A stretch of DNA of 40,152 nucleotides from a virus. The position numbers were made by a program, and so were the translations under genes. Positions 15,251 to 39,956 of this stretch are shown here, in pieces. The DNA lies in IMG/VR virus record IMGVR_UViG_3300025853_000227, positions 1 through 40,152 of that record. The stretch is one strand, 5' to 3'. Each line of letters begins with the position of its first letter. Position 1 is the stretch's first letter. Below the pieces are notes generated by a model that was given only the letters and a program-made list of their open reading frames with translations, had not been told where the DNA came from and searched no databases.

Positions 15251-15251
15251 A

Positions 15252-17069: not shown

Positions 17070-17070
17070 A

Positions 17071-20000
17071 TTAGTTTCCTCTCACTTTTGTATTAACATA
17101 CTCAGTACTAAAGAAGTTATAAAGTCTTTTTAAGTTTTCTTTTGTTGCTTGTTTGTTAATAGATTTAAGCATAGATGCCATTTGTCTAGTGTACTCTCTG
17201 TATACATGAGGTTTCTGGTTCTGATATGTAGCTGTCATAGCTGATATACGAGTGTATAAAGCTTTTGCTGTATCTTTGTCATTCGTAAGAATGGCTTTTA
17301 GTAAAATATCTTTGTTAAAAGTTACATGAGTTTTAATCCCACGTTTTATATCTTTCATATCTAAGGTAGCTTTATATACTTCGTCACTATGTATAGGAGG
17401 AAACCCAGCAGCTGTTAAAGTTTTCTCTAAAGTGGTATACTCTTTCATTTCTAAAAGTTTTCCAGACTTATTAATATTAGCGTTATATAAATGCATTGAC
17501 CAAGCCCTATCATACCTACTAGGAGCGGGTAAAGACAAAAAGATTTCTTTTAATAACTCACCACTTTCACTAACAATACCACTAGGAGATAAAGTACCTT
17601 CAGCAAGGCCCCGTAATAACAGGGAGCCTCCTACTGTTTCCATCCAATCACCTACAAGACTTCCTGAAGGGCCTCCAAAGTCAGTTAACTTAAGGTCTTC
17701 AAAGTTAGTTAAGATTTCACTAATAATATTATCCCGTAAAGGTTGCATACGTCCTATATCAGTACCTTCAAAAAGACCTCCGATTACACCATTAGCTATA
17801 ATTTTCCTTGTTGGTCCATCTACTTTTACTTCATTAACTTCTTCATATTTCTCAACAACTCCTTCTATAAGAGAGTCGATACCTAACCCAGCTGTACCGT
17901 ACAAGACAGCAATAGAAGTTCCAAATCTAAGTCTTTCTGCTCCAGTTAACCCATCTGCTTGTTTAAATAGTATTTGCTCAGCTACTCTAATAGGGTGAGC
18001 AGCAAACTGCATAGGAATAGAAGCAGGGCCGCTTTGGTATGCTGCTCTACTAGAAGATTTCATGTTTCCTGCAAAGATTTCTGCACGTGATAGGACAGCT
18101 TCTAAGGCATCCCCTACTGGACGCTTACCTGTTTTAGTGTAATGCTCTAACCAAGCCATAGTAAAACCAGCCATTTGATTAAGTTTCTCACCTTCTTTAA
18201 AGAAAACAAGACCAGCATCTAAAGCTTTATCACTGTACTCCCCTAACCTTCCTAAAGCAGAAGGACCGAATACTCTATTACCATCAAAAGGACTGTCAAG
18301 TTCAGCCTGTGTACCGTTTACTACATGTGCTCCACTATCTCGTATGTCTTCCATCAATTCACGCACTTGCCGTGGTTCAATAGAGTTTACTCCAAGTGGT
18401 GAACCTATCTTAGACGCTTTAGCAGCTAAGAACTCAAGAGCTTTAGGGTTTGACATCCACTCTGACATACGTAAAAGAGGTAACATTGCTAAAGCTTGTA
18501 CTCCTTGCCTTCCTGCTACAGCAGCAGCAACAGGTATCATAGAAGTTTGGACAATTACCTGTGATATATCCCCTAAACCTAGAAATAACTTAAACGTAAT
18601 ACCACGAAGGCCATCAATCCAGTTGTTATCCAGTGCTTTTTCTAAAGTTTCTGATCCAAGTCCTTTTAATGAACCTTTATTAGATAGTGTATACTCATGT
18701 AGTTTATACTTATAATTCTCAATGTCTTTAGCCATGTCAGAACGTGCATGAAGTATACGTTTTAGACCAGTGCGTGTTCTTTCAGCTTGAGCAAGTGCTC
18801 CTGAAGGTACTCCATCCGTTTTAAACTTACCATGTGTAAAAAACCACCAATCAGGTCGTGCTAAATCACCATCTTGAAGATACTGTTTGTAAGTTTGAAC
18901 CCACTCTTGAGTATTACGGGACTTAAACTCTCCAAAAGAACGGGTATTAATAATATGTTTAATGGAGTTTTCTAAGATTTCATTATGCCCAGCTACTTTT
19001 GCTAACTTACCGTAAGGGTCTTTAAGGTGATCCCCACGTGCTGAGTAGTACAAACGTCCTTGGTCTATATACTGCCTCGCACGTGCTGAAAAGTTTACCA
19101 TATCCTCATCAATATCTAAAGCTTCAGGGTTAATAGAGTCTTTGTTAGTTGAGTTGTATTTTGTTACATCATTAAGGGGTGCATCACCTTTATCTCGCCA
19201 CACTTCAAAGGGAGTACGACTAAGTTTACCCTTTGCAATAGCTTCTTTCATCTCATCATAACTGGCATACGGAGTATTCTTATTAATTATAATTGTAGCT
19301 TTAGATATAATATTAGCTGATGTAGCTCCACCAGCGTCTTCAGCTTTTTCAGCTACCTTAAACGCTTCAAGAGCTTTATTATATTCATCAGCTAACTTAA
19401 TACCTTCATCTCTACTTCCTACATTAAAGTGTGTACGAACATCTGTTAACGTGCCTTCAGAGTCAGTTACAGCTTGTTTCATAAAGTGAGGGCTATCGTA
19501 TTCTCTATGAGGGCCATTAAAATGATTTAACACTCTAGAGCGAATAGCTTTCTTAGACACACCTCGTTTGTCTACTAAAACGTACTGAGTTTTATCACCA
19601 CCTTTAGTCTTAACCTCATCTAAAAACTTAACAAGAACAAGGTTATCATTTTCTTCCATCTTCTTTAAAATGACTCCAGCAGTTTCTCCTTTAGGGTAAA
19701 GTTTACCGTTAGTAGCGTCAAAGATAGCTACGTTCTTAGTATTTTTACGGTCAAATGAAGTAAGTTCCTTAGCTATTCTAGGTTCATCTATAACACCCAT
19801 GATCCCGTACTCTTGAAACCCTCGTTGAATAAACTCTTGACGTAGCGCGTAGTTAGAGATGTACTCGTCAGCTTGATGAAGTTGTATAAGAGAACCGTAT
19901 GCAGTAACTTCATCATCTGTTGCTGTTCTTTGTTTATTAGTTTGAAACCAATCTTCAAAAGAATCCATAGACAACCAACGTCCTTCATTGTTACGTTGAG

Positions 20001-21648
20001 TATGTGACATTACTTCATCAATAGCTTGCCTACTGTTAGCTCCTAGTTTAGTGTACATCTTTGTAGTATTTTTAAATACTTCATTCAGTTTAGCTGAAGC
20101 ATTAACTCCAACAATACCACCACGTGAAACACGTTCATTCCAACGTAAGTTTACTCGGTTACCTAGTAAGTACTGAGGTACAAAGTTAATATGAAACTCA
20201 CCGTCTATCTCAGAAAAACCCTTAAGAATAGACTTTCCTCCCTCTTTATAAGGAGTTACATCAAACTTAGAAGTGACGTAGTACACTCCGTCTTTAGTAA
20301 TATCATAGAAACCTTCTTGTAAGCCTAAACGTAAAGCCCCTGCTTTAGCTGCTTCTTCTGATGCAAAACCTTTTAAGCCTTCGTCACCTGTGCCAAACTT
20401 AAAAGTTACACGGTTAATATCTGTATCAAAAGTACCTACGTCTACTAAACTATCTTTAGGGAGTCTAGAAATTAAGTCTTCTCTGATTTCTTTAATAGCT
20501 TCAATACGTTCTTCATCTGACAAGAAATTCTGTCCTTTGACAGTCTTAATAGCTTCTAACTCAGCTGCGTGTTTTTCTAAAGCTCTAGCTGATTTACCAG
20601 ATGTACCATTAACAAAACTGTTACTTGAAGAGGGAATAACACTTTCAAGAAGTTCGTCTGTTTCTGTTTTATTAAGAGGTTTATCAGAATAAGAGGACTT
20701 TTCTACAATTTCAGTTGTTCTTTCAGCGGCTGCATCAGGGTCTTTAGTAACTGTACTTAGTCTGTTAATACGTTTTATTTTAGTTAACGCTCTAAGAGTT
20801 TGACCAGTTCCTGCTATATCTATTAATTCAAACAAAGAACGAACAGTAGCTTCATCATCCATTATAGTTTTATTTGCTAGTGTATCTAACTTAAGGAGGT
20901 TAGGCAAGTCTGACTCATCTAGTTTCTTAATAATTTCTTCAACTTTAGCTACAGGATCAATATTATAAAAGATATCATCAGACTCTCTACGTAGTGCGTT
21001 GCCTAATGTTTCAAATTTACGCTCACCGTTAAGCCATTGGTTAAGAGTATCTATATAAGGAAGAAAAAGTGTGAAAACTTCTGAAATTGTTTCACCTACT
21101 CCTGCTTCCCCAAACTCACGTGCGTATCTACCCTTCTCACTGTTAAGTAGAAGTAAAGCAGCAGTTAAACTTTCTTGTCTTCCTACTGGATCAGTTAGTT
21201 TAGCTAAATCCTCATCAGTTAGTTCTTCACTATCTATAACAGAACTCCGTACATCACTAAACATACTTTTATTAATTAAAGCTTTAGCTGTTTCTCTTTC
21301 TAAGATACTTCGACCTTCTTCAGAACTACTCCTAGAAGTAAGATCATTGAGTACTTGAACCTGTATCGCTGGCTCTGCTGTAGGCTCTGTTGTCTCTCCT
21401 TCAACAAAACTATCAATGTCTTTATTAATTTTAGTATCAGCTAAGTACTGCCTAATATCAGTTTCTTTACCCTCTAAAGCTCTTTGTAACCAGTGTTCAG
21501 GAGGTAGAGCGTTTTCTCCATTAAGGTTCCTATCTGTTATTGCTGACATCTCAGCAATCTGCATAGCTTCGTCTTCAGGAATAGGTGAAGGTTGCTCATC
21601 TAAATTAGAAAGAAGAGGGGGAGGTGGTGCTTCTATTTCTGTAAGCAT
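17071..21648 (-). CDS. Very large internal core protein, gp16-like (1525 aa)
   Basis: It starts with a Pro-rich acidic segment (MLTEIEAPPPPLLSNLDEQP) and is largely helical. Toward the C-terminus there is a hydrophobic, Ala-rich region (LFLGLGDISQVIVQTSMIPV, AAAVAGRQGVQALAM) and a 'FAAHPIRVAEQILF' stretch, which recur in large ejection proteins of marine T7-like phages and could insert in the host membrane. T7 gp16 is 1318 residues; unlike it, no transglycosylase motif is visible at the N-terminus. The lysozyme domain is instead in the separate 506-aa protein. The start overlaps a TAATATG junction with the gp14-like gene. Confidence 0.7.
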   Translation of the reverse strand: MLTEIEAPPPPLLSNLDEQPSPIPEDEAMQIAEMSAITDRNLNGENALPPEHWLQRALEGKETDIRQYLADTKINKDIDSFVEGETTEPTAEPAIQVQVLNDLTSRSSSEEGRSILERETAKALINKSMFSDVRSSVIDSEELTDEDLAKLTDPVGRQESLTAALLLLNSEKGRYAREFGEAGVGETISEVFTLFLPYIDTLNQWLNGERKFETLGNALRRESDDIFYNIDPVAKVEEIIKKLDESDLPNLLKLDTLANKTIMDDEATVRSLFELIDIAGTGQTLRALTKIKRINRLSTVTKDPDAAAERTTEIVEKSSYSDKPLNKTETDELLESVIPSSSNSFVNGTSGKSARALEKHAAELEAIKTVKGQNFLSDEERIEAIKEIREDLISRLPKDSLVDVGTFDTDINRVTFKFGTGDEGLKGFASEEAAKAGALRLGLQEGFYDITKDGVYYVTSKFDVTPYKEGGKSILKGFSEIDGEFHINFVPQYLLGNRVNLRWNERVSRGGIVGVNASAKLNEVFKNTTKMYTKLGANSRQAIDEVMSHTQRNNEGRWLSMDSFEDWFQTNKQRTATDDEVTAYGSLIQLHQADEYISNYALRQEFIQRGFQEYGIMGVIDEPRIAKELTSFDRKNTKNVAIFDATNGKLYPKGETAGVILKKMEENDNLVLVKFLDEVKTKGGDKTQYVLVDKRGVSKKAIRSRVLNHFNGPHREYDSPHFMKQAVTDSEGTLTDVRTHFNVGSRDEGIKLADEYNKALEAFKVAEKAEDAGGATSANIISKATIIINKNTPYASYDEMKEAIAKGKLSRTPFEVWRDKGDAPLNDVTKYNSTNKDSINPEALDIDEDMVNFSARARQYIDQGRLYYSARGDHLKDPYGKLAKVAGHNEILENSIKHIINTRSFGEFKSRNTQEWVQTYKQYLQDGDLARPDWWFFTHGKFKTDGVPSGALAQAERTRTGLKRILHARSDMAKDIENYKYKLHEYTLSNKGSLKGLGSETLEKALDNNWIDGLRGITFKLFLGLGDISQVIVQTSMIPVAAAVAGRQGVQALAMLPLLRMSEWMSNPKALEFLAAKASKIGSPLGVNSIEPRQVRELMEDIRDSGAHVVNGTQAELDSPFDGNRVFGPSALGRLGEYSDKALDAGLVFFKEGEKLNQMAGFTMAWLEHYTKTGKRPVGDALEAVLSRAEIFAGNMKSSSRAAYQSGPASIPMQFAAHPIRVAEQILFKQADGLTGAERLRFGTSIAVLYGTAGLGIDSLIEGVVEKYEEVNEVKVDGPTRKIIANGVIGGLFEGTDIGRMQPLRDNIISEILTNFEDLKLTDFGGPSGSLVGDWMETVGGSLLLRGLAEGTLSPSGIVSESGELLKEIFLSLPAPSRYDRAWSMHLYNANINKSGKLLEMKEYTTLEKTLTAAGFPPIHSDEVYKATLDMKDIKRGIKTHVTFNKDILLKAILTNDKDTAKALYTRISAMTATYQNQKPHVYREYTRQMASMLKSINKQATKENLKRLYNFFSTEYVNTKVRGN

Positions 21649-21649
21649 A

Positions 21650-22156
21650 TTAGCTAAATACCTGTTGTGTTACTTTAACGATATCACTTCTATTACTAAA
21701 GATAGTGCCTCCAAGAGAGCCAACTCCTCTGAAGATAGATGCTGTATTTGCGTCTTGTTGAGCTTGGTTAGAAAACAACGTAGATTGAGAAAGTTGCGCT
21801 CTAGCTTGAAGGTTTAAGTTTGTTGCTTTATTTAAAAAAGATAGGTTTCCTCCTGCCTGTGATTGAATAGACCCTATTCCTCCGTACACAGAAGACCCCC
21901 TATTTAAAGCCCCCGAAGTTTGCGCTCTAGAAATAGCTGCACCCTTTTTAATACGTGCTTGACGAATCTGTTGAATCTTTTGTCTTCGTGCAGTTAAGTC
22001 AGCTCTCTTAGCTGCTATAGTTTCAGCACGTTCACGTGCTTTACTTGCCTTTTCAAGGTTGTCAGCTGCATCAGATGATTTAAGAAAACCAGCTACTGTT
22101 CCAAGAACAGCTGCACCAATACCTAAAACACCTAAAAGACCACTAAAGAAATTCAT
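21650..22156 (-). CDS. gp14-like internal virion protein (168 aa)
   Basis: The start at 22156 follows ATAGAGGAAGTACGAT. An N-terminal hydrophobic segment (FFSGLLGVLGIGAAVLGTVA) is followed by long Ala/Arg/Gln-rich helices (KASKARERAETIAAKRADLT, QQIRQARIKKGAAISR) and a Gly-rich middle. T7 gp14 (196 aa) is likewise a small internal protein with an N-terminal membrane-active segment that ends in the outer membrane at ejection. Its position directly after tail tubular B and before the large core protein matches T7 order. A motif such as 'ARAQTSGALNRGSSVYGGIGS' recurs in gp14-like proteins. Confidence 0.72.
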   Translation of the reverse strand: MNFFSGLLGVLGIGAAVLGTVAGFLKSSDAADNLEKASKARERAETIAAKRADLTARRQKIQQIRQARIKKGAAISRAQTSGALNRGSSVYGGIGSIQSQAGGNLSFLNKATNLNLQARAQLSQSTLFSNQAQQDANTASIFRGVGSLGGTIFSNRSDIVKVTQQVFS

Positions 22157-22168
22157 ATCGTACTTCCT

Positions 22169-24400
22169 CTATACCCTTACATTGTCAGCGAACTGAATAG
22201 CCCAGCCAAACATATCAAAATCAAACCCTGCCTGACTGTCAAAGTACAGGTGCAATGCTTTACCAGTACCTCTTACTTTGTTACGTGTCACTGTTACAGG
22301 ATACCCTGAGTTAAAATCTAAAGCAGCAGGAGTAGGGTTGTATGTCTTTAGTATCCTATACACTTGCTGTCTCGTACTAAACTTACCAGAGTTGCTATTG
22401 TCTGAGAAGTCCCAACGAGCTTGCATAAAGCAACTACTAGGATTTAAAACATTGAAACCACTTCCTCCATCACTTTGGTAACCTGTCTCTGTACGCTTAC
22501 AGTATACCATAACATGAGGGGCTTGTCTAGCATTAGTTACATTACCTTCCAATAAATATCCAGTCTCAAAGAAACTAGGTGCATCTACACCAGTTCCATC
22601 TACTGTAGCCCAGTCATAAAAGGTATCGTTGTTTAGCTGTCCAAAGGTGAACTCAGAGACTGTACCGTCTGGTTTAGCAATTACAAAAGCTGTAGTATTA
22701 GTAGCACTACGAAGCACTTCAACGTCAGCTACTACATTGTTACCTGTACTCGTTTGAATAACATTGTTACCTGTACTCGTTTGAATGATTTGGTTAGTCT
22801 GAGAAGTCTTAGATACAGTAGGGAGTACAAAGACACCAAAAGCATATGGAGTATTTGAAGCTAGGCTACCAAAGGAGAACGGATAAAAGCCTCCTATGTT
22901 TGTATCAAACACTAAAGCTTTGTCGTACTTGTATTGGTAACTGCCTGTGTTTCCTGCTGCATTCCACAGCCATGTAACCTTCTTAGATACTGGATCATAA
23001 GAACCTTGGCAGGATGTTTTAGATACGTTAGGAATAGTGTCATCGTAATACGTTTGAATAGTTTGTTCAGATACAGACTTAGCTTCAATACGGTCAGTTA
23101 CTTCATTACGACCAATAGAGAAGATACCTCGTTCACTCCACCACAGGGGTGTGCCTTCTACGTCTACGATGCTACGTTTTCCTAGTAGGCCAGCATCACC
23201 AATGCTTGTCACTGTGTAGTCAGTAGGTGAGAAGCCAGCACCAGAGCCTGAGATAGCCCATACACCGTTAACAGCAAAGACTAGGAGTGACTCACCAGTG
23301 ACTCTCATAGACAGGATGTTCCCTGCCTGTGGAATAACTATGACACCTCCGTCTGTGTCAATCAAGTCGCTGATCTCTTCTGATGTAGGATCAGCTTCTT
23401 GGTAGCACCTACCTATGTTAGTATCGTTCTCAATGATCTGACTAAAGTAAACTGTACCAGCTAGAGTACTTGAAGTAGGGCCACCATACCATGCTCTACC
23501 AGCAAAGAAAGCAACTGCTTCAGGCCGTGTAGTTACTGTCTCAGCTACAATGTTAGATACACCAGAGATTGTTGTACGGTCTTTGTTAAAGGGGTCTAAG
23601 ATAAAGTGACCACGTGGTGCTCTCGTATTACCAAAGAAGATTTTAGTTAGCTCAGAAGGGTCGAAGTTATCACTAGCGTCTTTAGCTACCCACCACTGTT
23701 TGTTGTTACCGGGGTATTTACTTTGACTACTGAAGTAAGTAGTAATAGGATTAGCTACTCCACCTCCTGAACTGATCCACCCTTGGTTCTTTAAGTTGTA
23801 GTTATGTGCATCAGTTAAAGAAGTAGGTTCTTCATCAATGTCTAGACTGTCTTCTACACCATCAAAGTCTCTTACTAAGACACCTATCTCAGTGTTAACG
23901 ATTGAACCAGAACCTGTTGGAGTGTACTCAATATAGAATGGTTTTAGTTTACTAGATACGACAAACAAATAACCTTTACCAAAGGCTACATCAATCAACT
24001 CAGAGCCTACATCAGTAGCAGCAGGAGCTGCAAAGCTTGCTAAGTTTACAGTAAAACCTTTCTTGTTATCTGAGATAGGTTGAGTACTTAAGTCATAGAA
24101 GTGTAGGGTAGCATCAATCTGTACAACAAGGAAGTGTAACGTACCGTCACCTCCTACTTCTTCCCAGACCCAAGAGCCTACTGCTTGAGTTTCCCATGTA
24201 GCTTCTACTACGTCAAGGTTAGTTAAAGCAGCAGAAGCTTCATAGTCTAGGCCCAGCCTTCTACGTATGTCCCCTTTCTTATCAAAGACACAGTTGTCTG
24301 CACCTAACACTGCGTTCTCAGGGAACGTCAGTGGGGTTGCTTCAGTAACTAAACCAGCTACAAACGTGTTATATACTTTTAGACTTTGATTTCTTGGCAT
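22169..24400 (-). CDS. Tail tubular protein B, nozzle (T7 gp12-like, 743 aa)
   Basis: The N-terminus is diagnostic: LKVYNTFVAGLVTEATPLTF then NCVFDKKGDIRRRLGLDYE, found in T7-type nozzle proteins. The rest is beta-rich (propeller-like), with AVAFFAGRAWYGG and a WWSERGIFSIGRN motif. Length is close to T7 gp12 (794). It forms the distal tail tube through which DNA leaves. A 27-base tandem duplication adds one extra IQTSTGNNV unit near residue 540. It overlaps the preceding 101-aa gene by 32 bases and follows tail tubular A in T7 order. Confidence 0.9.
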   Translation of the reverse strand: MPRNQSLKVYNTFVAGLVTEATPLTFPENAVLGADNCVFDKKGDIRRRLGLDYEASAALTNLDVVEATWETQAVGSWVWEEVGGDGTLHFLVVQIDATLHFYDLSTQPISDNKKGFTVNLASFAAPAATDVGSELIDVAFGKGYLFVVSSKLKPFYIEYTPTGSGSIVNTEIGVLVRDFDGVEDSLDIDEEPTSLTDAHNYNLKNQGWISSGGGVANPITTYFSSQSKYPGNNKQWWVAKDASDNFDPSELTKIFFGNTRAPRGHFILDPFNKDRTTISGVSNIVAETVTTRPEAVAFFAGRAWYGGPTSSTLAGTVYFSQIIENDTNIGRCYQEADPTSEEISDLIDTDGGVIVIPQAGNILSMRVTGESLLVFAVNGVWAISGSGAGFSPTDYTVTSIGDAGLLGKRSIVDVEGTPLWWSERGIFSIGRNEVTDRIEAKSVSEQTIQTYYDDTIPNVSKTSCQGSYDPVSKKVTWLWNAAGNTGSYQYKYDKALVFDTNIGGFYPFSFGSLASNTPYAFGVFVLPTVSKTSQTNQIIQTSTGNNVIQTSTGNNVVADVEVLRSATNTTAFVIAKPDGTVSEFTFGQLNNDTFYDWATVDGTGVDAPSFFETGYLLEGNVTNARQAPHVMVYCKRTETGYQSDGGSGFNVLNPSSCFMQARWDFSDNSNSGKFSTRQQVYRILKTYNPTPAALDFNSGYPVTVTRNKVRGTGKALHLYFDSQAGFDFDMFGWAIQFADNVRV
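22734..22787 (-). repeat. 27-bp in-frame tandem duplication within tail tubular protein B
   Basis: Two head-to-tail 27-base units (22734-22760 and 22761-22787) differ at one base. On the minus strand they encode the nine-residue unit IQTSTGNNV twice in succession. The reading frame is kept. The near-identity at DNA level suggests a recent slippage or duplication event. Confidence 0.9.
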
Positions 24401-24674
24401 TCTTTAAAATATCCATACCACGTGTTTGATCTTCTACTTTAAAAGCAATGTACTTATCGCCAGCTGCTCTCATATCCCTTTCATTAGTATAGTTACCGCT
24501 TAGTTGTTTAGGTAGAGGGCCTCCACCAGCCCATTGAAACTTTAGAAACCCATAAGGATTAGTTTTTATTACTTGTAACTTATGTCCTTTAGCTGTTTCC
24601 CATTGTAACTCACTTACATTAATAACATTACTATCGTTTGCGTCTACTGCTACGTCCATAGTCGGTCCTTCCAT
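24369..24674 (-). CDS. Small protein between tail tubular A and B (up to 101 aa)
   Basis: Two starts are possible: ATG 24674 behind AAGGAATAAC and ATG 24659 (MDVAVDANDSN) behind GGAAGGACCG. The protein has a strand-rich segment 'TAKGHKLQVIKTNPYGFLKFQW' and ends in a basic tail KNAKKSKSKSI. It overlaps both tail tube genes, so translation is coupled with them. The position implies a virion or tail assembly role, but no family is recognised. Confidence 0.6.
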   Translation of the reverse strand: MEGPTMDVAVDANDSNVINVSELQWETAKGHKLQVIKTNPYGFLKFQWAGGGPLPKQLSGNYTNERDMRAAGDKYIAFKVEDQTRGMDILKNAKKSKSKSI

Positions 24675-25404
24675 AAGAGTTATTCCTTGCTTCAGATACT
24701 TTGTGTTTGTCAGACTGCCATCGTATCTTTTGTCTTAAGGCTTGTTGCTCTGCCTTAGGATTTGCTTGTTGATTAAGTTCTACATGCGCTGTAGACTTAG
24801 ACTCATTAAGTAATAGAGGAAATAAGTTTACATCTATATCAGGTACAAAGGTATTTGACATAGTAAAGGTTGGTTCTTCAAGACCCCATACTATAAACTT
24901 ACTTGCTTGTAGTGTATCATCTACTGCACTATCATAAGAGTCAAAGATTAAGAACTCATCATCAAAGCTAGTATAGTAAGTAGGTGCTTTGTTATTGTAG
25001 ATAAATACTTTACCATTATCAACAGTAACAGTAACAACAGTTGAGTCTGTAGACTGACGAGATAGAGTATCTGATAAGAACTGATAAGGCTCTACCCAAG
25101 ATACTACTTCGTATGCCTTAATAGAGTCACCTGTAAGTATAGTATCGTACCTGACTTCATCTATACGTCTGATATTCTCAGGTACTTTCATAGTTGAAGG
25201 TTTAGTTGTATCAGCTAGAGCTGTCAGAGGCACTAACTTACGATGCTCTGGTATCTCAATGTTGTTTATTAGATCATAGTAAGTATCTCTAATAATGTAG
25301 GCAACTTGTTCAGACTCTACGGTATCTGAAAAGGAGTCAACAGCATCACTATCCATACTACTAAGGATACGCTGTGTCATATCTAAGAGTGTTAGCTTAG
25401 GCAT
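24631..25404 (-). CDS. Tail tubular protein A, head-tail adaptor (T7 gp11-like, 257 aa)
   Basis: The protein has the look of T7-type adaptor proteins: the N-terminal 'LDMTQRILSSMDSD' and 'SEQVAYIIRDTYYDLI', the central 'PENIRRIDEVRYD', and the C-terminal Q/R-rich helix (QQANPKAEQQALRQKIRWQS) with basic end GRSSRRKR. T7 gp11 is 196 residues and sits under the portal. ATG 25404 follows AAAAAGGAGCACACTA. In T7-like phages the major capsid gene lies directly upstream; here a coiled-coil gene and then a fiber gene are found instead. Confidence 0.82.
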   Translation of the reverse strand: MPKLTLLDMTQRILSSMDSDAVDSFSDTVESEQVAYIIRDTYYDLINNIEIPEHRKLVPLTALADTTKPSTMKVPENIRRIDEVRYDTILTGDSIKAYEVVSWVEPYQFLSDTLSRQSTDSTVVTVTVDNGKVFIYNNKAPTYYTSFDDEFLIFDSYDSAVDDTLQASKFIVWGLEEPTFTMSNTFVPDIDVNLFPLLLNESKSTAHVELNQQANPKAEQQALRQKIRWQSDKHKVSEARNNSYGRTDYGRSSRRKR

Positions 25405-25447
25405 TAGTGTGCTCCTTTTTCTTTAACGTGTAGGTAAGTGTTAACAT

Positions 25448-25774
25448 CTAACCTAATCCTAACTTATTAGCTAATCCAGTTGTTAAGGCACCGACTATAC
25501 CACCAGTACCACCAATAGCAGCAATGCCAATCAGCATACGTTGTTTAAACTTCTTTAAGTCCCCTATAGCTGACCCATGTGACTTAACATCCTTTTCTAT
25601 CTCAGCTATCTTTATATCATCCTTAGTGATGTTAGTCTGGATGACAACAGTTAGATCAGCCACCATCTTTTTAATGTCACCGACTTGATCGAACAGGGCT
25701 GCACGTTGGTTCTTAGATGCCGTAGCTTCTGCTTTAAGTTCACCGATAGCTGCGCTTACTTGGTCTATACTCAT
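25448..25774 (-). CDS. Coiled-coil protein with C-terminal membrane segment, DUF1515-like (108 aa)
   Basis: ATG 25774 (MSIDQVSAAIGELKAEA) with AGGTAGGG upstream and one base after the fiber stop is preferred to ATG 25804. Residues 1-75 form a heptad-rich coiled coil; residues about 78-100 are hydrophobic (LIGIAAIGGTGGIVGALTTG). The opening 'IGELKAEA.ASK.QRAALF' is one I connect with DUF1515-type phage proteins. It might be a holin-like or spanin-like lysis factor, since such genes often follow the tail fiber. It lies exactly at the boundary between the two virion cassettes. Confidence 0.6.
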   Translation of the reverse strand: MSIDQVSAAIGELKAEATASKNQRAALFDQVGDIKKMVADLTVVIQTNITKDDIKIAEIEKDVKSHGSAIGDLKKFKQRMLIGIAAIGGTGGIVGALTTGLANKLGLG

Positions 25775-25775
25775 A

Positions 25776-28715
25776 TTACTTTGCCCTACCTTGGTTGATC
25801 GCACCGTCTGTTAATGGCTGGATGCCGAAGGCTCCGTAGATATAAGTGGCTCCAGAGTTGTTTAAATGAACCTCAGATCCATTATCCCTAGTTTTAAAAC
25901 CTGTAGATAGGAAGTCCATCTGGGATACAGCATCAGCAGTTAAAGCCTGAGTACCTGACAAATCTAAAGCACTATTAACCTCATTACCGTTGAGTTGGGG
26001 TGATGTAGTAGACCAGAACGTAGCCGCACCAGAGTTCTTACGGAATAAGAATTGAGAGCCACCACCTACGTTCGATACAGGCCCATCAGTATTTCCATTG
26101 CCTGTATAACTTCCAAACGCATACGGGCCGCTGTTCGCCCAGTGGTACGAAATAATGTTGGCACTATCTTGGTTTGAATTTTGTTCATTGCCAACTTTAA
26201 ACTGTGTCGTTGTCGGGGTAAAACTGCCAAATGCTCCAGCATTACTTGCCGCTGTTGCATGGTCTGTAACATCTAATCGTGAAGCGTTACCCGTAGAGAT
26301 GTGGTAAGTCATTGTACGCTCTTGTGTGCTACCATCTCTGTTAAAGAAGACCATAAAACCGGGAGCAGAGTCTAATGCTGAATCATAACTTAATGTTTGA
26401 ACAGTTGGGTGGTCACCAACAAATCCTTTAATCTGGAAGTAACTGCCCACATAAAAACACTCTAGTAAATAAGTTCCAGTTGCCAAATCTGATGGCATAG
26501 TAAATGTGGTTCCCGTTAAGTTCTGATCATCAAACGTGCTTGTACTTTCAGCTTCGGTTACGTCCCATCTTACTGATTTATTAGCTCCACGAACCGTATC
26601 AAATCCATACCAGCTACCTGTAGAATCTGTACGTTTAATACGCACCATCGCACCACCACTGACCGTCTTAGGCAACGTAACCGCTGTCGTTGATCCGTTG
26701 CTGTGGCTTATTCCAGCTTCGATGTAGTATTCATCTTCATAATTAATTGGGGCTGGGGTAGGTAGGTTTTGGGTTCCCATAGAAACAAAACCAGAAGGTG
26801 GAGTTCCTAACCAATCACCACTGTCTGCGTATATGTCTGTGTTACCATCGCCATATAAACTTGAACCAACCAACACCGCTTCATTAGCTGTGAAAGTCCA
26901 AGTTGCGTTAGTCCCTGCTGCTGGTTGATCTGTTGTTCTTGTAGTGCCAGAAGTGTCAACCCACCTAGACACTGAGCCACTGTTATCATAAAAACCTAAC
27001 CAGCCTTTACCCGCTTCACTGTCGATGGCTATAATTGTTCGATCAGGGGATAACATCTTTGTATCAACTGTGGTTAATGAGCCACCGTCTATCTTTAGCT
27101 TAGTGTCAGAAGTTGACAAAGTATGAAGTCCCGCACCTTGGCCTGATGCATTTCCTAGTTGAGCCGTTGACCCCCAAACATTACTTGAGGCTAATGCAAA
27201 ACCAATAATCTCTTCATCGTTCACAAATGTGTTAGGCTTTATTTCAACATAAAACTTACCTGAATTAATAGCTAAAGTAGAAGCCCCACAATAACCAGTT
27301 CCACTCGCGTTTGCAAAATGTCGATTACCATCCGTGTAAACAGGTGTTCCTGCATTAGTGTCAGGTATTAAGGGGTTAAACGTAGCATAATTACCATATT
27401 CATTGTCATCACCACCATTCGTCGGAGAATCGTTGGTGGCGGTTATTGTGCCTGTCTTGGTGAAGTCGTTTGGTAAACCTGTTGCAGACCAATCTGTCCA
27501 GTTGACCGTATTAATAGTTGCCGTGGCATTCGCCCCACCGTGTACAAGACGCAGTGTTCCTGAGTAGCCATTAGCAAATACCGCTTTAAATGCTCCATCA
27601 TAATAAATACTAAGAACAGACCCCTTACGTGTTACTGTTACCCTGACTCCATAAGTTGCCCCAAGACTTGCTGTTAAAGATGCTCCATTAGAATAATAAG
27701 AACCGTCGTTGTGATCTATTAGGAACTGATTACCAGAGAAGCTTCCGTAGTTAGCTCCAGGTTGAACAGCACTGTTATACGTGCCGTCTTCTGAACTGGG
27801 GTATAATAATGTTCGACCAATACCGGTACCTCCATTATAGCCATCGAAAGATATAGAGAAGTCTCCAGTAAAAGTATCATTAACTCTAACACTACTGTTA
27901 CTAGCTACAGTTAAATCATCAGCTAAGAAAGTAGCCGTCCCTGTCGCACCTGTGTATTGGGAAGAACTTGCACTTACTGTTGTTGTCGGTCTATCGGCTG
28001 TTGCTACTAATACACTATCATAACCAGCCGCTACATTAGCACCGCCTTCAATTAAGAAAGAATTTGTGCCTGTAAAGTCTAATTCACTTACATCCGAAAT
28101 ACTCCAGAATCCATCGTCTGTAGTTTCACCGAATGATGTTGGGGCTAGTTGTAATCCGTCTATACTTACTACTCTAGCCACATAATCATTGATAAACGCT
28201 GATCCTCCAGCGTAACTCCCTATCTCATGTGGCACAGTTCCATTCATCCCGAAGTTTTGGTTCTGTGTGGGGTTATTGCGTGTTGCGAAGTCCGTAACTT
28301 CTGTACCGTTTAGATACATACGAACACGATTTGCTGCCGTAGAATTAGTGCTGTCACAAGCCACAATAAGTGACTGATAGGCAGCAGGGTCACGCAGTTC
28401 TTGTGTTGTTTCCAACCACGTTGTCCCCCATCCTACGACACGAACATTGTAACCTGTTGTGCCTGACCCAATAAGCTGAATAGTAAACGAATTAGTATCA
28501 GCTTGGCTTGATGTGGGGTTCACGCCTAAAAGGATTGGGTTTGTCAGCCCAAGGGATAGTTTAAATATAAACTCAACTGTGAACTTGTCTTGGTTTCCTG
28601 CACTACTAGGGGTTCGTGCTAACTGACCACTGCTACCATCAAATAATCCACTGCCATTTATAACAAAATCGCCGCCAGATGCTAAACTGGCAAACATTAT
28701 CTGCTGCATACTCAT
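25776..28715 (-). CDS. Large tail fiber / receptor-binding protein (979 aa)
   Basis: The protein is rich in Gly, Ser, Thr and Asn. An N-terminal concanavalin/LamG-like region (about residues 40-210: FTVEFIFKLS ... YVARVVSIDG) is followed by a second beta-sandwich-like unit (about 245-415: ISFDGYNGG ... SIYYDGAF). A SPRY-like stretch (about 430-620: GKFYVEIKPN, KGWLGFYDN) precedes a C-terminal region (about 640-979) with YIEAGISHSNG, VRIKRTDSTGSWYGFDT and GFKTRDNG...SGATYIYGAF, which resembles the DUF7483 fiber domain. Such fibers bind host surface sugars. The ATG shares its A with the previous stop (TAATG), tying it to the right-hand cassette. Confidence 0.8.
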   Translation of the reverse strand: MSMQQIMFASLASGGDFVINGSGLFDGSSGQLARTPSSAGNQDKFTVEFIFKLSLGLTNPILLGVNPTSSQADTNSFTIQLIGSGTTGYNVRVVGWGTTWLETTQELRDPAAYQSLIVACDSTNSTAANRVRMYLNGTEVTDFATRNNPTQNQNFGMNGTVPHEIGSYAGGSAFINDYVARVVSIDGLQLAPTSFGETTDDGFWSISDVSELDFTGTNSFLIEGGANVAAGYDSVLVATADRPTTTVSASSSQYTGATGTATFLADDLTVASNSSVRVNDTFTGDFSISFDGYNGGTGIGRTLLYPSSEDGTYNSAVQPGANYGSFSGNQFLIDHNDGSYYSNGASLTASLGATYGVRVTVTRKGSVLSIYYDGAFKAVFANGYSGTLRLVHGGANATATINTVNWTDWSATGLPNDFTKTGTITATNDSPTNGGDDNEYGNYATFNPLIPDTNAGTPVYTDGNRHFANASGTGYCGASTLAINSGKFYVEIKPNTFVNDEEIIGFALASSNVWGSTAQLGNASGQGAGLHTLSTSDTKLKIDGGSLTTVDTKMLSPDRTIIAIDSEAGKGWLGFYDNSGSVSRWVDTSGTTRTTDQPAAGTNATWTFTANEAVLVGSSLYGDGNTDIYADSGDWLGTPPSGFVSMGTQNLPTPAPINYEDEYYIEAGISHSNGSTTAVTLPKTVSGGAMVRIKRTDSTGSWYGFDTVRGANKSVRWDVTEAESTSTFDDQNLTGTTFTMPSDLATGTYLLECFYVGSYFQIKGFVGDHPTVQTLSYDSALDSAPGFMVFFNRDGSTQERTMTYHISTGNASRLDVTDHATAASNAGAFGSFTPTTTQFKVGNEQNSNQDSANIISYHWANSGPYAFGSYTGNGNTDGPVSNVGGGSQFLFRKNSGAATFWSTTSPQLNGNEVNSALDLSGTQALTADAVSQMDFLSTGFKTRDNGSEVHLNNSGATYIYGAFGIQPLTDGAINQGRAK

Positions 28716-29689
28716 TAGGTCAATCCCGATCCGCTAATCATCCATCTTGTTGCCGTCATCTTTATGCAAGTTGCGATTCCGTTGGCTGCTAATGAACGTG
28801 ACCCTGTTGTGCCATCTGGTGATAAAACAAGAACGTCAGACGTTATTGCAATAGTTATAACGCCACCACTCGTATCATTTACAAATGTTATGGCAGTGCC
28901 TATCGGATACGCCACAGAAGCGTTAGCAGGGATCGTCCAGATGCGGGCGGTAGTGTCAGCGCCTGGATGGTATATGTGCTTACCAGCGTCAGCTAAAACT
29001 AACGTATAAGCCGCTGATTTGCTGTTTTGCGGTATGCTTCTAATTGTTGAGTATACAGAAGTTAATCCCGCTGGACTTACAGCGCGTGTGGCATCAGTAC
29101 CCGTCAAAGTCTCCGCATCAGTTGCAATCTCAATTAATCCAGCAACGGTAGCACTTGCCGCTGGTGCGTCTGCAATCTTCATAATCTGCATGGTTGAAGT
29201 GGTATCTAGGATACCCATGTAAATATCTGACGCGACATGATCGCCCGCCGCTAATGCCGCTCTGTCGCTTTGCATTGCAATTGTAGACAGCCCGCTAATA
29301 GCAACCGTCATGGCGCCTGTATTAGAGCTAGTTGATGCCTTCCAGAAAAACCGCTGTCCAGCCGCATATGCTGTTATGGCGGGTGTAGGGGCTAAAGTGC
29401 CAGCATCCGCAGCCCCGCCCATTGTACCGCAAAATACATATGCACTGGCTTGAACTTGTCCTAAAGTTGCGCTGTCCGTCGATGCGCTTCCAACAGTTAG
29501 ACCCGTAAACTTTTTGCTCGACATTGGGATGTTGCCCGTAACAGTGCTTTGTCCGTCAACCGCAATTGATTGCGTCAACGCCGTTGCTATTGCGCTGTTG
29601 TTTGCGTCAACTTGGTCGCTGGAAATTACAGTTCCTGCAACGAAATTGGGGTATGGGTTTGTGTAAGACCCTGATCCGTTACGTGCCAT
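28715..29689 (-). CDS. Tail fiber-type protein (324 aa)
   Basis: The start MARNGSGSYTNPYPNFVAGT is typical of short fibers or tail appendage proteins in podoviruses. Next come 'NIPMSSKKFTGLTVGSASTD', an Ala/Thr-rich helical stretch, and 'AGLIEIATDAETLTGTDATR', a segment shared by many collar/fiber proteins. The C-terminal part is strand-rich and ends RWMISGSGLT. It probably attaches the larger fiber encoded just downstream. It is coupled to both neighbours by start-stop overlaps. Confidence 0.75.
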   Translation of the reverse strand: MARNGSGSYTNPYPNFVAGTVISSDQVDANNSAIATALTQSIAVDGQSTVTGNIPMSSKKFTGLTVGSASTDSATLGQVQASAYVFCGTMGGAADAGTLAPTPAITAYAAGQRFFWKASTSSNTGAMTVAISGLSTIAMQSDRAALAAGDHVASDIYMGILDTTSTMQIMKIADAPAASATVAGLIEIATDAETLTGTDATRAVSPAGLTSVYSTIRSIPQNSKSAAYTLVLADAGKHIYHPGADTTARIWTIPANASVAYPIGTAITFVNDTSGGVITIAITSDVLVLSPDGTTGSRSLAANGIATCIKMTATRWMISGSGLT

Positions 29690-29690
29690 T

Positions 29691-31694
29691 TTATCTTGCT
29701 CCTAAAGCTTTTTGCATTGTTTCTTGACCGCCTGTTGCGCCCGTTATTGTTAATGCTTTTATCATTCTGTTTTTAATTCTGTTTGTAATTTCACCAGCGC
29801 GATAAGCTTTTTGTATAGAAGCCAAGTCTTGCCCAGTTAATCCTTCGCCCAATCCTTTTGACAGTTTTTCAGACATTAGTAGCCGATCTTTACTACCACC
29901 AAGAATGTCCACCATGCCGCCAACTGTATCTAAAGGATTAGGTGACTTCATTCTGATTAAACCACGAATAACTCTTGACGGGTCAATTACAGCGTCTGCT
30001 TTAGCCGCTTCACGTTCTGCCGTTTGTGAGCCACCCATCATAGAATAGCCTTTGAACATTTCTTTTTCTGTTTCAAGGCCAGTTATGTATTTCTTAAACA
30101 TCTCATTGTCGCCAAAAGCCATTCTTATTTTGTCTTCAAGCCCTGTAATGTCCATTATTTTCTTAGTTGCGTCCGCTCTGCGCGTCAGGTCGCCAACTTT
30201 ATTTTTAAGCGCCTGCACCGCGCCAATTCTGAAAGTATGCAATTCTTCTGGCGACATTTTAGCTAATGAAGCAGCTAATTCACTAGGATTTATAAATTCT
30301 GATTTACTCATAAACTTAGCACCGCTTTCAAGTGCCTCTTGCTTCATCCATTCGCCACGGGTGCCAACTCTACCGGCTTGGTATGCCGCGCCCGATTCGC
30401 CGCTGCTTTCTATCGCCTCAATAAGCCTATTCGTGTAATCCTTCACACGGCCCTTTGAAACGCTGCCCATAGATGTGCGGGCCTCACCAGACATTAATTC
30501 ATCAATAGCCATCTTTGACTGATGTAGAGTTTCAATCGTTATTTCTGGGTTTCCGTTTTGGTCTACAAGCAAGTCTTTCACTTTTTGCAAGCTTGACTGA
30601 ATGCCGCCTTTAGAATTGGCAATTTCGTCATCAAGGCTTTTTATTAAAGGCATAACGTCTACAAGGTCGCCACCGTCCCGTGCTGCGTTGTAGTCCTTTC
30701 CAAAACCCTTTCTTGCGGCAGTTATACCGGCCTCAGTATCAACATACTTTTCTGGGACAAGATCATCAATCTGCCCTGCAACTCTATTTACCTGACCGCC
30801 TTGAATAACTTTGTCAGCGTCTCTTACGCCTTCTTGCCTGTTGATTAAGAAGTCAGTTATTTTTGTTTTTCCTTCGCCTGGAGTTTGTTGGGCTGATCCA
30901 GCAAGGGCGCGTGTATTCGGGCCAAGGTCTAGCAATGCAGCCTCTGAACCCATTTCTTCCATTTTAGCTGCGGCCTGTTCTGGACTTACTCCATCGCGCT
31001 CCATAGCTTCTGCAATTTTGCGAGCAGCCAGTGATTGCTGTTGATAGGGCAGTCGAGAAACAAGCTGATTAATTCCAAATTTAATAGTTGCAATTAATCC
31101 TTCAACAACAGGGGGCGTGGCTGCTCCAATAACCGCTCCGCCAACAAGACCTGTTCCACCGCCTATTGTTCTGTCAACTACATCGCCTTCTGCATTTGTA
31201 AAACCAGACAACGCGCCAAGAGGCGCTCCAATCTTTGCTCCTTGCGTCATTTTTTGAATCATAGAAGATCCAGGGGCAGGGGTTGGCATAAACCTAGCGC
31301 CAGCAAGCCAAGGCGCTGTTTGTCCAGCAATATCAAGTGTTGGAGCTAGTATTGGGTTTTCTTTTTTGTAAAGTTCTCTTGATCTTTGATATTGTGGCAA
31401 GGCTTGGTCGTATGCCTCACCAAAAGGAAGTCCACCAGAAAATGATTCTTTAGCAGCGGCAACGCCAGCTTTTAATTCGTCGCCTAAACCTTGCAAAACA
31501 CCGCTTGAAAACTGACTACCACCGCCCCAAAGTTCAGGCTGTTGGGTAGTGCCTAGCGGTTGTTCAGGGCGTCTTTCTGGTTGTTCAGCGCTTTGGGCAA
31601 TAATTTTTTTTGCCGCTTGTTGTATAACAGCGGGGCTGGTTCCGTCTGGAAATTCTAATATTGTTCCGTCTGCAAGTTCTACTTCTTGTGTCAT
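29691..31694 (-). CDS. Ejection / internal virion protein (667 aa)
   Basis: The N-terminal domain 'VELADGTILEFPDGTSPAVIQQAAKKI' is a small module seen at the start of many podovirus and prophage ejection proteins. It is followed by a Pro/Gln-rich linker and a Gly/Ala-rich hydrophobic region (GGGTGLVGGAVIGAATPPVV) able to contact membranes. The rest is helical, with SLAARKIAEAMERDG and a C-terminal 'RIKNRMIKALTITGA'. No lytic enzyme motif is visible. It is the last and largest of three ejection-like genes in the cassette, like gp16 in the P22 gene order (gp7, gp20, gp16). Confidence 0.65.
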   Translation of the reverse strand: MTQEVELADGTILEFPDGTSPAVIQQAAKKIIAQSAEQPERRPEQPLGTTQQPELWGGGSQFSSGVLQGLGDELKAGVAAAKESFSGGLPFGEAYDQALPQYQRSRELYKKENPILAPTLDIAGQTAPWLAGARFMPTPAPGSSMIQKMTQGAKIGAPLGALSGFTNAEGDVVDRTIGGGTGLVGGAVIGAATPPVVEGLIATIKFGINQLVSRLPYQQQSLAARKIAEAMERDGVSPEQAAAKMEEMGSEAALLDLGPNTRALAGSAQQTPGEGKTKITDFLINRQEGVRDADKVIQGGQVNRVAGQIDDLVPEKYVDTEAGITAARKGFGKDYNAARDGGDLVDVMPLIKSLDDEIANSKGGIQSSLQKVKDLLVDQNGNPEITIETLHQSKMAIDELMSGEARTSMGSVSKGRVKDYTNRLIEAIESSGESGAAYQAGRVGTRGEWMKQEALESGAKFMSKSEFINPSELAASLAKMSPEELHTFRIGAVQALKNKVGDLTRRADATKKIMDITGLEDKIRMAFGDNEMFKKYITGLETEKEMFKGYSMMGGSQTAEREAAKADAVIDPSRVIRGLIRMKSPNPLDTVGGMVDILGGSKDRLLMSEKLSKGLGEGLTGQDLASIQKAYRAGEITNRIKNRMIKALTITGATGGQETMQKALGAR

Positions 31695-32953
31695 GGTATT
31701 ATATTTCCTTGAGCATCAAGCTTTATTCTTTTTGGTGTGCCGCCTTGCCCTGTATTTCCTTTCTGCAATTTAGCCCAACTAGCTACCGTATTGCCTGGTG
31801 TACCCAAATAAATTGCTGCTTTGCTTACATACCTAGCTAATTTTTGTTGTGCTAATTTCTTTGTTGTTAGCCAATTTTTTAAGGACACAGGATCAAGTTT
31901 TGTTGGCAGTGCCGTTGCTAACGCTAAATCAAGTTCACCTTTAGACAATGCCCCAAATGTTACATTTCCAATAACGTCTAAACCCATTCGTCTTTGCACG
32001 TTATCTAAATTTACAGATGCAGCGGTAAAGCTAGGCAGCATAGAAATTATAGGCCCAGTGTTTGCGCCATTATCAATTTGCAAAATTGCATCATCAATGT
32101 TTGCTATGCTTTGACCTACTTTAGCAAGTGTTTCAAACGCTTTTCCTGATGCTATTACAGATTGTTTTCCTTGTTCTGTTGCGCCAGCAATTAAAGGAGC
32201 CGCTTCAATTTTTGGTTGAAGTTTTGCTTTTTCCCTTGCTTCTATATATTTTAAATCTGAAGCTTTAATTTCAATGAAGTTATTAAGTTTTCTTTTAGCA
32301 TCTGCTTTTCCTGCTGCCGTAGTTGCGTTTGTTACATTGTCTTGAAGTATTGTTAACTCTCTTGAATCTTGTATTGTCGATGTTGGTCTGCCAGTTGCAC
32401 TTGATGGGTATTTTTGTTTTAATTTTAACTCATTTTCTAAATCTTCTCTTTTTTGCACTCTAGCCAATGCCGCTTGCTCTGCCGCTTGGCGTTGTTGCAT
32501 TTCGCCCATTAAAGCTTGTTGCCTAAAGTTAGATAGATCAGGATTGTCCATTGGCCTTAACGCATCAACAATACCAGCAAAACCACCTTTTGTTTTAGTT
32601 TCAGGTGTGCTTGGCTCAAAGTCTCCGATACCAGATTGGCTGTATGTGGCAGGGGTTGCAGGAACAACTCTCGGTGTTGCAGCTTCCATAGCCGTGGATA
32701 TATCACTGCTTAACGCTTGTTCACGCTCTTGCATATCACGTTGTGCTTGACCGCCAAAATAACCGCCTGCAACGCCCGACAATGCCCTTGTAAGCCCTTC
32801 TAATGGCGATTGAACAGGTGCAGTGCTTGATCCTTGTTGCATTAGCTGTTGAGCCATTAAACGCCTTGGATCTTGTGCATAGTCACGCTGTATAGGATCG
32901 CCACCAAGTGCTTTATTCATGCTGCCATAAAATTGTACGTTGCGACTTGCCAT
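31691..32953 (-). CDS. Probable ejection protein (420 aa)
   Basis: It opens MASRNVQFYGSMNKALGGDP and has a Gln/Met-rich region (RRLMAQQLMQQGSS, EMQQRQAAEQAALARVQKRE) followed by long coiled helices (LENELKLKQKYPSS, KADAKRKLNNFIEIKASDL). The C-terminal third is helical with 'ATALPTKLDPVSLKNWLTTK'. This composition fits proteins packed in the head and ejected with DNA. There is no catalytic motif. It overlaps the genes on both sides (TAATG and ATGA). It is the middle of a set of three. Confidence 0.55.
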   Translation of the reverse strand: MASRNVQFYGSMNKALGGDPIQRDYAQDPRRLMAQQLMQQGSSTAPVQSPLEGLTRALSGVAGGYFGGQAQRDMQEREQALSSDISTAMEAATPRVVPATPATYSQSGIGDFEPSTPETKTKGGFAGIVDALRPMDNPDLSNFRQQALMGEMQQRQAAEQAALARVQKREDLENELKLKQKYPSSATGRPTSTIQDSRELTILQDNVTNATTAAGKADAKRKLNNFIEIKASDLKYIEAREKAKLQPKIEAAPLIAGATEQGKQSVIASGKAFETLAKVGQSIANIDDAILQIDNGANTGPIISMLPSFTAASVNLDNVQRRMGLDVIGNVTFGALSKGELDLALATALPTKLDPVSLKNWLTTKKLAQQKLARYVSKAAIYLGTPGNTVASWAKLQKGNTGQGGTPKRIKLDAQGNIIP

Positions 32954-34038
32954 TACAGAACAGCCTCCGAATAATTAACTGCCTTAATACCGTTAAATTC
33001 TTGCACAGCTTTTGGATTAACTTTTTCAACGTCTTGCGCCATAAGGCCAATTTGTTGTGGGCCACCCCATTTATATTGGTATGAGTAAACATCAAGTCCG
33101 TTATCTAATTTGCCAACTTTTTTAATGTTCTTTTTAACTCTACGGTCTGAAAACAAAGAAGTATTACCAGCTAAACCACCACCAACAGCGCCGCCTAAAC
33201 CAAACAACCCGCCCATTGCGGCATTATTTGCGCCTATTTGTTGATTGTAATTATTCATACTGCCTTGGTACGCTGTGTTGATTGGGCCAGCAATATCTGT
33301 TGGGCTGATTCCAGTTTGTGGAATAGCTGAGAATGTTGGGTTGTTGATTTGTGTGCCTGACATTAACGCAGCAACTTCGTTCAATGGCGCGTTTCTGGTG
33401 CGCTCATATTCTTGAATTGCCCGCTCTCTAGCACTGCCTTGCAAACCAAATAACCTAGATTGTTCCGATCCGCCGCCCGTAATAGCGGCATTCATTGCTG
33501 ACTGATATGCATCGTTTTTAGAACGGTTTTGACTTTCCATTGCTTTCGTAAAAGCGTCAGACCCAACGCCAATGCCTTGATTAGCTAGTTGAGTTTCTAA
33601 AGCTGTTTGAGCGTCTGCAAATTGTGGGTCTAAACGCGATTGAAACTGACTAAACATAGAATCAATAGTCTGTTGTCTAGCCGCTGCATCAGCACTAGGT
33701 GCGCCTGGCATTCCTTCATACGAATATGGATCTGCTAAATTGCTGCCAACCCTTGATATTTGATCGCCCGCTAACGCATTAAGCTGGCCTGATATTCCAG
33801 TTTGCTGATCGACAATAGCTTGCTGCGCTGGGTCTAAAGTCGTATCACGCCTGAATCTTTGTATTCCATCAACGGGGCTTCCTGTTTCTGAATATACACT
33901 GCTGCCATAAGGCGTGTATTCATCAACCTGATTTAAACGAGATTGAGCAATTGCCGTTTCTTTGTTTGCCGCACCTTGCGCTGCCGCTGTTGCCGCTGGA
34001 TCAGGAGCCGCTGGTGCGGACGGGGTAGATTTACCCAT
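32953..34038 (-). CDS. Virion protein with short S74-type chaperone domain (361 aa)
   Basis: The N-terminus is Ala/Pro-rich (KSTPSAPAAPDPAATAAA), then come a segment 'YTPYGSSVYSETG' and helical, Gln/Asn-rich repeats. A Gly-rich hydrophobic stretch (GGLFGLGGAVGGGLAG) leads to a C-terminal unit starting FSDRRVKKNIKKVG and including GLDVYSYQYKW and GLMAQDVEKV. That is the intramolecular-chaperone (peptidase S74) signature, with its SDxRxKxNI active-site motif, but it is short and ends soon after VNYSEAVL. Proteins of this layout are common in podovirus tail/ejection cassettes. It may be cleaved or may keep the domain as an oligomerisation cap. Confidence 0.7.
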   Translation of the reverse strand: MGKSTPSAPAAPDPAATAAAQGAANKETAIAQSRLNQVDEYTPYGSSVYSETGSPVDGIQRFRRDTTLDPAQQAIVDQQTGISGQLNALAGDQISRVGSNLADPYSYEGMPGAPSADAAARQQTIDSMFSQFQSRLDPQFADAQTALETQLANQGIGVGSDAFTKAMESQNRSKNDAYQSAMNAAITGGGSEQSRLFGLQGSARERAIQEYERTRNAPLNEVAALMSGTQINNPTFSAIPQTGISPTDIAGPINTAYQGSMNNYNQQIGANNAAMGGLFGLGGAVGGGLAGNTSLFSDRRVKKNIKKVGKLDNGLDVYSYQYKWGGPQQIGLMAQDVEKVNPKAVQEFNGIKAVNYSEAVL

Positions 34039-34453
34039 TTAACCACCTCTTTGCATTGTCTAAGTATAAACCATACGTGCAAGCAGTCTTACCTTTTGCC
34101 GCATATGGATGTGTGCCTTCCAACAAAAAACCAAGCCCACTAAGCAGCTTTCTCGCCTTCTTGTTTGATTTGTTTGTAATTGCGGTCATTCGCTGTACGC
34201 CAAGTTGTTCAAAGGGGTAGTGCAATAATGCCCTGACTGTTCCCTTCGTGGCCCAACGGCGGGTCGAAGTAACAAAAGTTATTTCAATATCATTATGGCG
34301 GTAATTATGATAAATTGCAACGCCAATAATGTTTCCAGCTTTGTCAGCCATTCCAATTGCCGATAACGGTCTGCATAAAGGGGCTGCATCTGGGTAATTA
34401 AGTTCAGCCCATTGTGCTAATTCTTCGTCACGATCAAAGATAAGTTGCGTCAT
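34031..34453 (-). CDS. GNAT-family N-acetyltransferase (140 aa)
   Basis: The GNAT fold pattern is visible: strands 'GNIIGVAIYHNY' and 'IEITFVTSTRRWATKGTVRA' with the acetyl-CoA loop region (RRWATKGTV), then helix ALLHYPFEQLG, strand RMTAITN, and 'NKKARKLLSGLGFLLEG', the usual C-terminal motif. It would move an acetyl group to an amine on a protein or small molecule. Genes of this type recur inside structural cassettes of marine podoviruses between nozzle and ejection genes, and the target is unknown. Start and stop overlap both neighbours. Confidence 0.85.
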   Translation of the reverse strand: MTQLIFDRDEELAQWAELNYPDAAPLCRPLSAIGMADKAGNIIGVAIYHNYRHNDIEITFVTSTRRWATKGTVRALLHYPFEQLGVQRMTAITNKSNKKARKLLSGLGFLLEGTHPYAAKGKTACTYGLYLDNAKRWLNG

Positions 34454-35004
34454 TACTTTTGAACAGGCAAGCTAACTGGATGCTGGTAACAAGCTTCTGG
34501 GTTGCCTTGCCCTGCCTCTGTTAAGAATGTTGTGTTTGCTGGAACTTGTCCCATTGGGCAACGACAAATTGCAATGTTGTCAGGGCCAATCTTGCAATTA
34601 AAGCTGAAACAATTACTAGCATTAAACCCTTGATTTAAACTTGCATCGCATTTTTGTACAACAGCTTGCATCTTTTCTGGTCGTTTGCTGAAGTTGCTTG
34701 CCTCTTGTGGGTAGTATCTCTTTGGAGCAAATAAGCTCCATACGTGATTATCGTCTATTGGATCACATGAACCTTGCATATTTCCCATAGTAGTGTCTGC
34801 AATAGCTTTACCGTCTATAATTGGGCATTTGCATACGACTTCTGGGTATGTGTTGCCGTTATTGGTGGCAATAGTTCTGCCTGTTGGCTGACAAGTCGAT
34901 GCAGCGCAAAGTGCATACTTTCCTTGGCACGTTGTTAGGTCTGCCTGTGCCGTTGAGCTAAAAGCAGCAATGGCAACAATAATAAACAAAAATCTTACAA
35001 TCAT
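34453..35004 (-). CDS. Exported Cys-rich protein (183 aa)
   Basis: ATG 35004 overlaps the upstream stop (TAATG) and follows AGGAAACGCAT, so the longer reading from 35028 is rejected. A Sec signal (MIVRFLFIIVAIAAFSSTAQA) precedes a mature part with about a dozen cysteines in pairs (TCQGKYALCAASTCQ, VVCKCP, CFSFNCKIGP, IAICRCPMG). Disulphide bonding in the periplasm is likely. An exported disulphide-rich protein in a virion gene cassette is unusual. It could be a periplasmic factor, an exclusion protein, or an outer virion part. No family is recognised. Confidence 0.7.
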   Translation of the reverse strand: MIVRFLFIIVAIAAFSSTAQADLTTCQGKYALCAASTCQPTGRTIATNNGNTYPEVVCKCPIIDGKAIADTTMGNMQGSCDPIDDNHVWSLFAPKRYYPQEASNFSKRPEKMQAVVQKCDASLNQGFNASNCFSFNCKIGPDNIAICRCPMGQVPANTTFLTEAGQGNPEACYQHPVSLPVQK

Positions 35005-36548: not shown

Positions 36549-36614
36549 CACACAAATACTTTCTTTTTTATTATATTAATGTTACAATGTTTAGTTCCTA
36601 AAGGGGGTAATATT

Positions 36615-38337: not shown

Positions 38338-38341
38338 TTAA

Positions 38342-39040: not shown

Positions 39041-39042
39041 AA

Positions 39043-39902: not shown

Positions 39903-39920
39903 TTGTTTTCCTTATTTAGT

Positions 39921-39949
39921 AAAAAGGGGCTGACAATTAAGCCAGCCCC
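39921..39949 (-). terminator. Rho-independent terminator after the head gene
   Basis: On the minus strand, GGGGCTG (39943-39949) pairs perfectly with CAGCCCC (39926-39932) and can be extended by a G-T and a C-G pair; it is followed by TTTTT (39921-39925). It lies between the stop of the partial gene and the next start, so it would cut back transcription from an abundant head gene into the tail genes. Confidence 0.88.
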
Positions 39950-39956
39950 GATTTAA

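Follow-up and report, generated by a model that had tools for sequence, protein, structure and literature searches.

A public 40-kb viral record is most likely an assembly chimera of two unrelated short-tailed phages joined within a shared fibre segment

The Cobavirinae (Zobellviridae), among them Roseobacter phages CRP-5 and SIO1 and Lentibacter phage ICBM1, have a genome of two arms, with the replication genes on the plus strand and the lysis and virion genes on the minus strand. Their known gene order runs from fibres through terminase, portal, scaffold, capsid and one small gene to tail tubular A (PMC6775973). A second arrangement is shared by the uncultured podovirus ctMlz233 (MW202489) and the viral contig G011, which is circular (its ends overlap by 99 bp) and about 35.5 kb long; here the order is portal, scaffold, capsid, small head genes, adaptor, stabilisation/amidase-annotated protein, acyltransferase, virion proteins and fibre. 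Chimeric viral contigs arising from shared regions are a documented assembly error, affecting less than 5% of contigs of at least 10 kb in simulations (PMC5610896). Sequence comparison indicates that the record IMGVR_UViG_3300025853_000227, whose whole stretch of 40,152 nucleotides is called the window below, is very probably a chimera in which assembly fused two unrelated short-tailed marine phages, named here phage A (1-27148) and phage B (27149-40152). As in the chimeric contigs described before, the join would lie where two genomes are highly similar (PMC5610896; PMC4247695), but those cases involve closely related strains whereas here the fibre segment is shared by unrelated phages.

The phage A portion carries early and replication genes on the plus strand, followed by lysis genes, internal virion proteins, tail tubular B and A, a coiled-coil gene and the C-terminal half of the fibre gene. 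The replication arm is of the cobavirus type, with DNA polymerase A, primase/helicase, exonuclease, endonuclease and ribonucleotide reductase all present. Identity with the Cobavirinae was found for the DNA polymerase (34-38%), the adaptor (40-42%), tubular B (34%) and parts of the internal virion proteins, while the reductase is only weakly similar to those of CRP-5 and ICBM1. Phage A thus appears to be related to the Cobavirinae, and the window genes left of the fibre, where matched, have homologues in A-clade and Cobavirinae genomes only and none in B-clade genomes. The A-type relatives in IMG/VR are unlike the known cobaviruses in one respect: a fibre-region block lies between capsid and tail tubular A (about 3-6.6 kb in L011, L012, L013 and L019), whereas the fibres of the described cobaviruses lie upstream of, or beyond, the terminase. 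Three contigs tile the left part of the window (1-9750) at about 99.75%, namely L186 (1-4013, 99.75%), L121 (376-7146, 99.76%) and L120 (3667-9750, 99.74%). Coverage by these A-type contigs breaks off for 12 bp (9750-9762), and only relatives at 87-90% identity (L124), whose gene order there is unchanged, span the gap. The remainder of this portion (9762-27148, 17,387 bp) is matched at 99.97%, with 5 mismatches, by the 19.8-kb contig L005/L101 from another metagenome. Two tandem 27-bp copies, a length that is a multiple of three, are present at 22734-22787 in the tail tubular B gene.

The phage B portion contains the N-terminal part of the fibre gene, further fibre and virion genes, an acyltransferase, an amidase-annotated protein and an adaptor, and it ends inside a head gene. 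The 19-kb contig L020/L021 matches 27017-40152 with 3 mismatches in 13,136 bp (99.98%), and L023, which comes from a further sample, covers 33210-40152, likewise with 3 mismatches. From 28715 rightward the matched genes have homologues in B-clade genomes only, while the fibre gene matches both clades. The phage B adaptor/tail tubular protein (232 aa, 38342-39040, minus strand; phrog_6013 'tail protein', E=1.7e-41) is a second and different neck protein of the window; it is 33% identical to the 'putative tail tubular protein' of ctMlz233, in line with the moderate to low protein identity between that phage and phage B, and no similarity to the phage A adaptor was detectable by sequence comparison. 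Phage B is a podovirus unrelated to phage A. It shares the gene order of ctMlz233 and G011 and has extra genes compared with both, such as a 503-aa protein with almost no relatives. The gene for this protein lies beside the adaptor (36826-38337) and matches nothing in PHROG or Pfam; its one phage match is partial and weak, and it has none in two B-type relatives.

The change from one phage to the other was located inside the fibre gene (979 aa, 25776-28715, minus strand). The two parents share a fibre segment of about 780 bp (26676-27458; L005 2110-2889 and L020 14237-15019), which is 95.8% identical between them, while the rest of their fibre genes differs. At all diagnostic sites, those that distinguish L005 from L020, the window has the L020 base from 27149 rightward and the L005 base from 27016 leftward, with a single switch. 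As all diagnostic sites split around it, the switch falls inside a 132-bp tract (27017-27148, also minus strand) that is identical in both parents. The result is in accordance with the per-60-residue identities of the fibre protein, which is identical to one or the other parent throughout, being B up to about residue 525 and A after about residue 565; the A part includes DUF7483 (PF24299, E=1e-27). The hybrid fibre stays in frame across the switch. Since the parents are identical at the tract and remain in frame, the join is invisible from one sequence. A search with the 60-bp core of the tract among 2.9 million viral contigs (IMG/VR viral_contigs) returned, besides the window, only the two parent contigs and no second hybrid.

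The exchange of fibre modules between unrelated phages is a known phenomenon. The shared segment is present in two separate contigs outside the window (L005 and L020), which are otherwise different phages, and further contigs, in which none of the other A and B genes is matched, carry related segments with about 41-55% protein identity. These distributions point to an earlier natural exchange of the fibre segment between the A and B lineages, a real if ordinary piece of biology.

The absence of capsid and portal genes from the window, as claimed in the preliminary description, was borne out, and terminase is likewise absent. Profile searches (PHROG, Pfam) detected none of the three anywhere in the window, and tblastn of the window with capsid, portal and terminase proteins taken from each of the parent clades gave chance-level matches only (E 0.04-0.7); head genes hidden among unannotated window genes are thereby ruled out. 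A complete circular genome with head genes at its ends was also rejected: no terminal repeat is reported and contigs extend past both ends of the window. To the left, the A-type contig L186 continues about 2.1 kb beyond base 1, so this end of the window is not a genome end. To the right, B-type contigs continue 5-6 kb past 40152, where L021 holds the rest of a 167-aa head gene, the major capsid gene, a scaffold-like gene and the portal. The window holds the 3' part of the 167-aa head gene (39957-40152, minus strand; L021 5045-5548, phrog_29386) and is cut there by the contig end, window position 40152 corresponding to L021 5353. The major head protein gene (L021 4026-5003, phrog_9953, E=3.6e-79) has its near end about 350 bp beyond this position, and the portal gene lies at L021 2-1738 (phrog_12082). 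Compared with the Cobavirinae gene order, the head block appears cut out of the window; the head genes of phage A itself would lie upstream of its own fibre, as in L011.

The lack of head genes is explained by the contig being a join of two phages. A short-read assembler most likely walked from the fibre gene of phage B into that of phage A through the shared tract, a step that would be possible because the k-mers or reads of the assembler are about the length of this tract or shorter; short reads have little power to resolve such a tract. Such a walk would have left the genome of phage A before the capsid block upstream of its fibre, and the contig would have stopped inside the gene of phage B just after its capsid gene; head genes would be missing because the walk left A before its capsid block and the contig ended short of the capsid of B. 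The two phages were presumably present together in the window's own sample. The capsid-less two-cassette phage, as recorded, is most likely not real, and the 40-kb public record most likely mixes two phages. If the chimera reading is true, the capsid genes are missing because the contig is faulty and incomplete, not because the biology is odd, and gene-content or host inferences from this record would be wrong, for example that the phage is 'capsid-less' or that it combines A-type replication with B-type virions. It would also mean that recently exchanged fibre segments between unrelated phages are long enough to mislead short-read assembly.

The same junction could be produced by homologous recombination in the shared fibre segment, joining the structural arm of phage B to the tail, lysis and replication arms of phage A. 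A crossover in a tract of perfect homology with the fibre kept in frame fits such an event, and the segment already exchanged between the lineages implies that A and B meet in nature. Near-zero divergence from both parents would, however, require an extremely recent event, and the 60-bp core search yielded the two parents separately and the join in the window alone. The product would carry two unrelated adaptors, two complete neck/tail sets and two fibre sets. With the missing head genes of B (about 7.7 kb, scaled from G011) and the missing left end of A, its genome would reach about 50 kb, whereas the nearest near-complete relatives, G003 (A-type, with contig ends meeting in the reductase gene with imperfect overlap) and G011, have about 42.9 kb and 35.5 kb, respectively. 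The recombination explanation is therefore considered unlikely, and it is equally doubtful that the window represents a very recent natural recombinant of two unrelated podoviruses, with the crossover in the shared fibre segment and now two neck/tail systems. From the three sequences alone it is logically possible that the window is the true genome and that L005 and L020 are both chimeras, each swapped in the fibre gene. Two errors would then have to be assumed in place of a single one. Small genes, an endolysin-like gene and a B-type primase, and not tail tubular A, come after the fibre gene in G011, and in A-clade relatives the head genes that precede tail tubular A are A-type; a true window beside two chimeric contigs is thus very improbable. 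An assembly chimera, by comparison, is consistent with the tiling of the window by two separate sets of contigs and with the switch in identical sequence.

The preliminary description had rightly suspected a join and had placed it at 25404-25778, where a fibre cassette would have replaced the capsid and portal of a T7-like phage; judged against the two parent contigs, the actual switch lies 1.2-1.7 kb to the right of that interval. Its gene layout agrees with the PHROG calls: a 257-aa tail tubular A/head-tail adaptor (24631-25404; phrog_7592, E=3.5e-73; 42% to the CRP-5 'putative adaptor protein'), a 108-aa coiled-coil gene with a hydrophobic C-terminus (25448-25774; an open reading frame with no significant Pfam or PHROG family) and the 979-aa fibre, all on the minus strand, where tubular B and then the internal virion proteins follow tail tubular A downstream. 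A join at this place would suit the known Cobavirinae, in which the capsid lies one gene upstream of tail tubular A, and a change of composition does occur nearby. Contig L005/L101, however, spans 25405-25778 unbroken within its 17-kb match, and the pair of coiled-coil gene directly before tail tubular A recurs in L007 (coiled-coil 86%, adaptor 81% identical) and L011 (68% and 71%). The border is thus present both in an independent contig at 99.97% and in relatives whose coiled-coil protein is 14-32% diverged, which leads to its rejection as a join. In the A-type relatives, moreover, fibre-region genes normally come after the capsid and before tail tubular A, where the earlier account expected the capsid directly upstream: about 2.7-6.6 kb of other genes separate the two in the nearest relatives with both. 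L011 has A-type terminase, portal, scaffold and capsid upstream, the capsid being 2.7 kb from the coiled-coil gene; the distance from capsid to tail tubular A is 6.4-6.6 kb in L012, L013 and L019, which have about ten intervening genes. A join at 25404-25778 is accordingly the least credible of the explanations weighed here, and the border there, with the coiled-coil gene and its flanks (25405-25775), is native to phage A. The neat gene borders and good ribosome sites, remarked on before, are simply native features. The genes had been described as one base apart, which holds for the fibre/coiled-coil pair only; the coiled-coil gene and tail tubular A have 43 bp between them.

The shift of codon choice toward GCC, GCG and CGC on the right, seen by eye before, is real. 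The share of GCC+GCG among Ala codons is 9% left of 25404 and 27% right of 28715, and that of CGC among Arg codons is 3% and 20%, respectively. The best codon change point had a log-likelihood gain of 215 against at most 37 in shuffles. The place of the shift is less sharp than had been described, as the composition curve forms a broad plateau at about 25.6-28.7 kb with a peak near 26.1 kb. Codon usage alone was rejected as a means of placing the join, the peak of the plateau being about 1 kb off the actual switch.

The slot just upstream of tail tubular A is occupied by at least four different small-gene families across the relatives and is naturally variable. An 83-aa gene lies at the lysis end of the window (13155-13406), while in L008, L010, L017 and L112 its homologues (72-86%) stand immediately before tail tubular A; it is a small gene changing position within one phage group. 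Another record, IMGVR_UViG_3300030109_001309 (L110-L113, 69,275 bp), is probably a second chimeric one: its first 29 kb match G004 at 99.3%, after which the sequence passes into a different A-type phage that has a DNA polymerase, a reductase and a tail tubular A of its own, the last with one stop in that frame.
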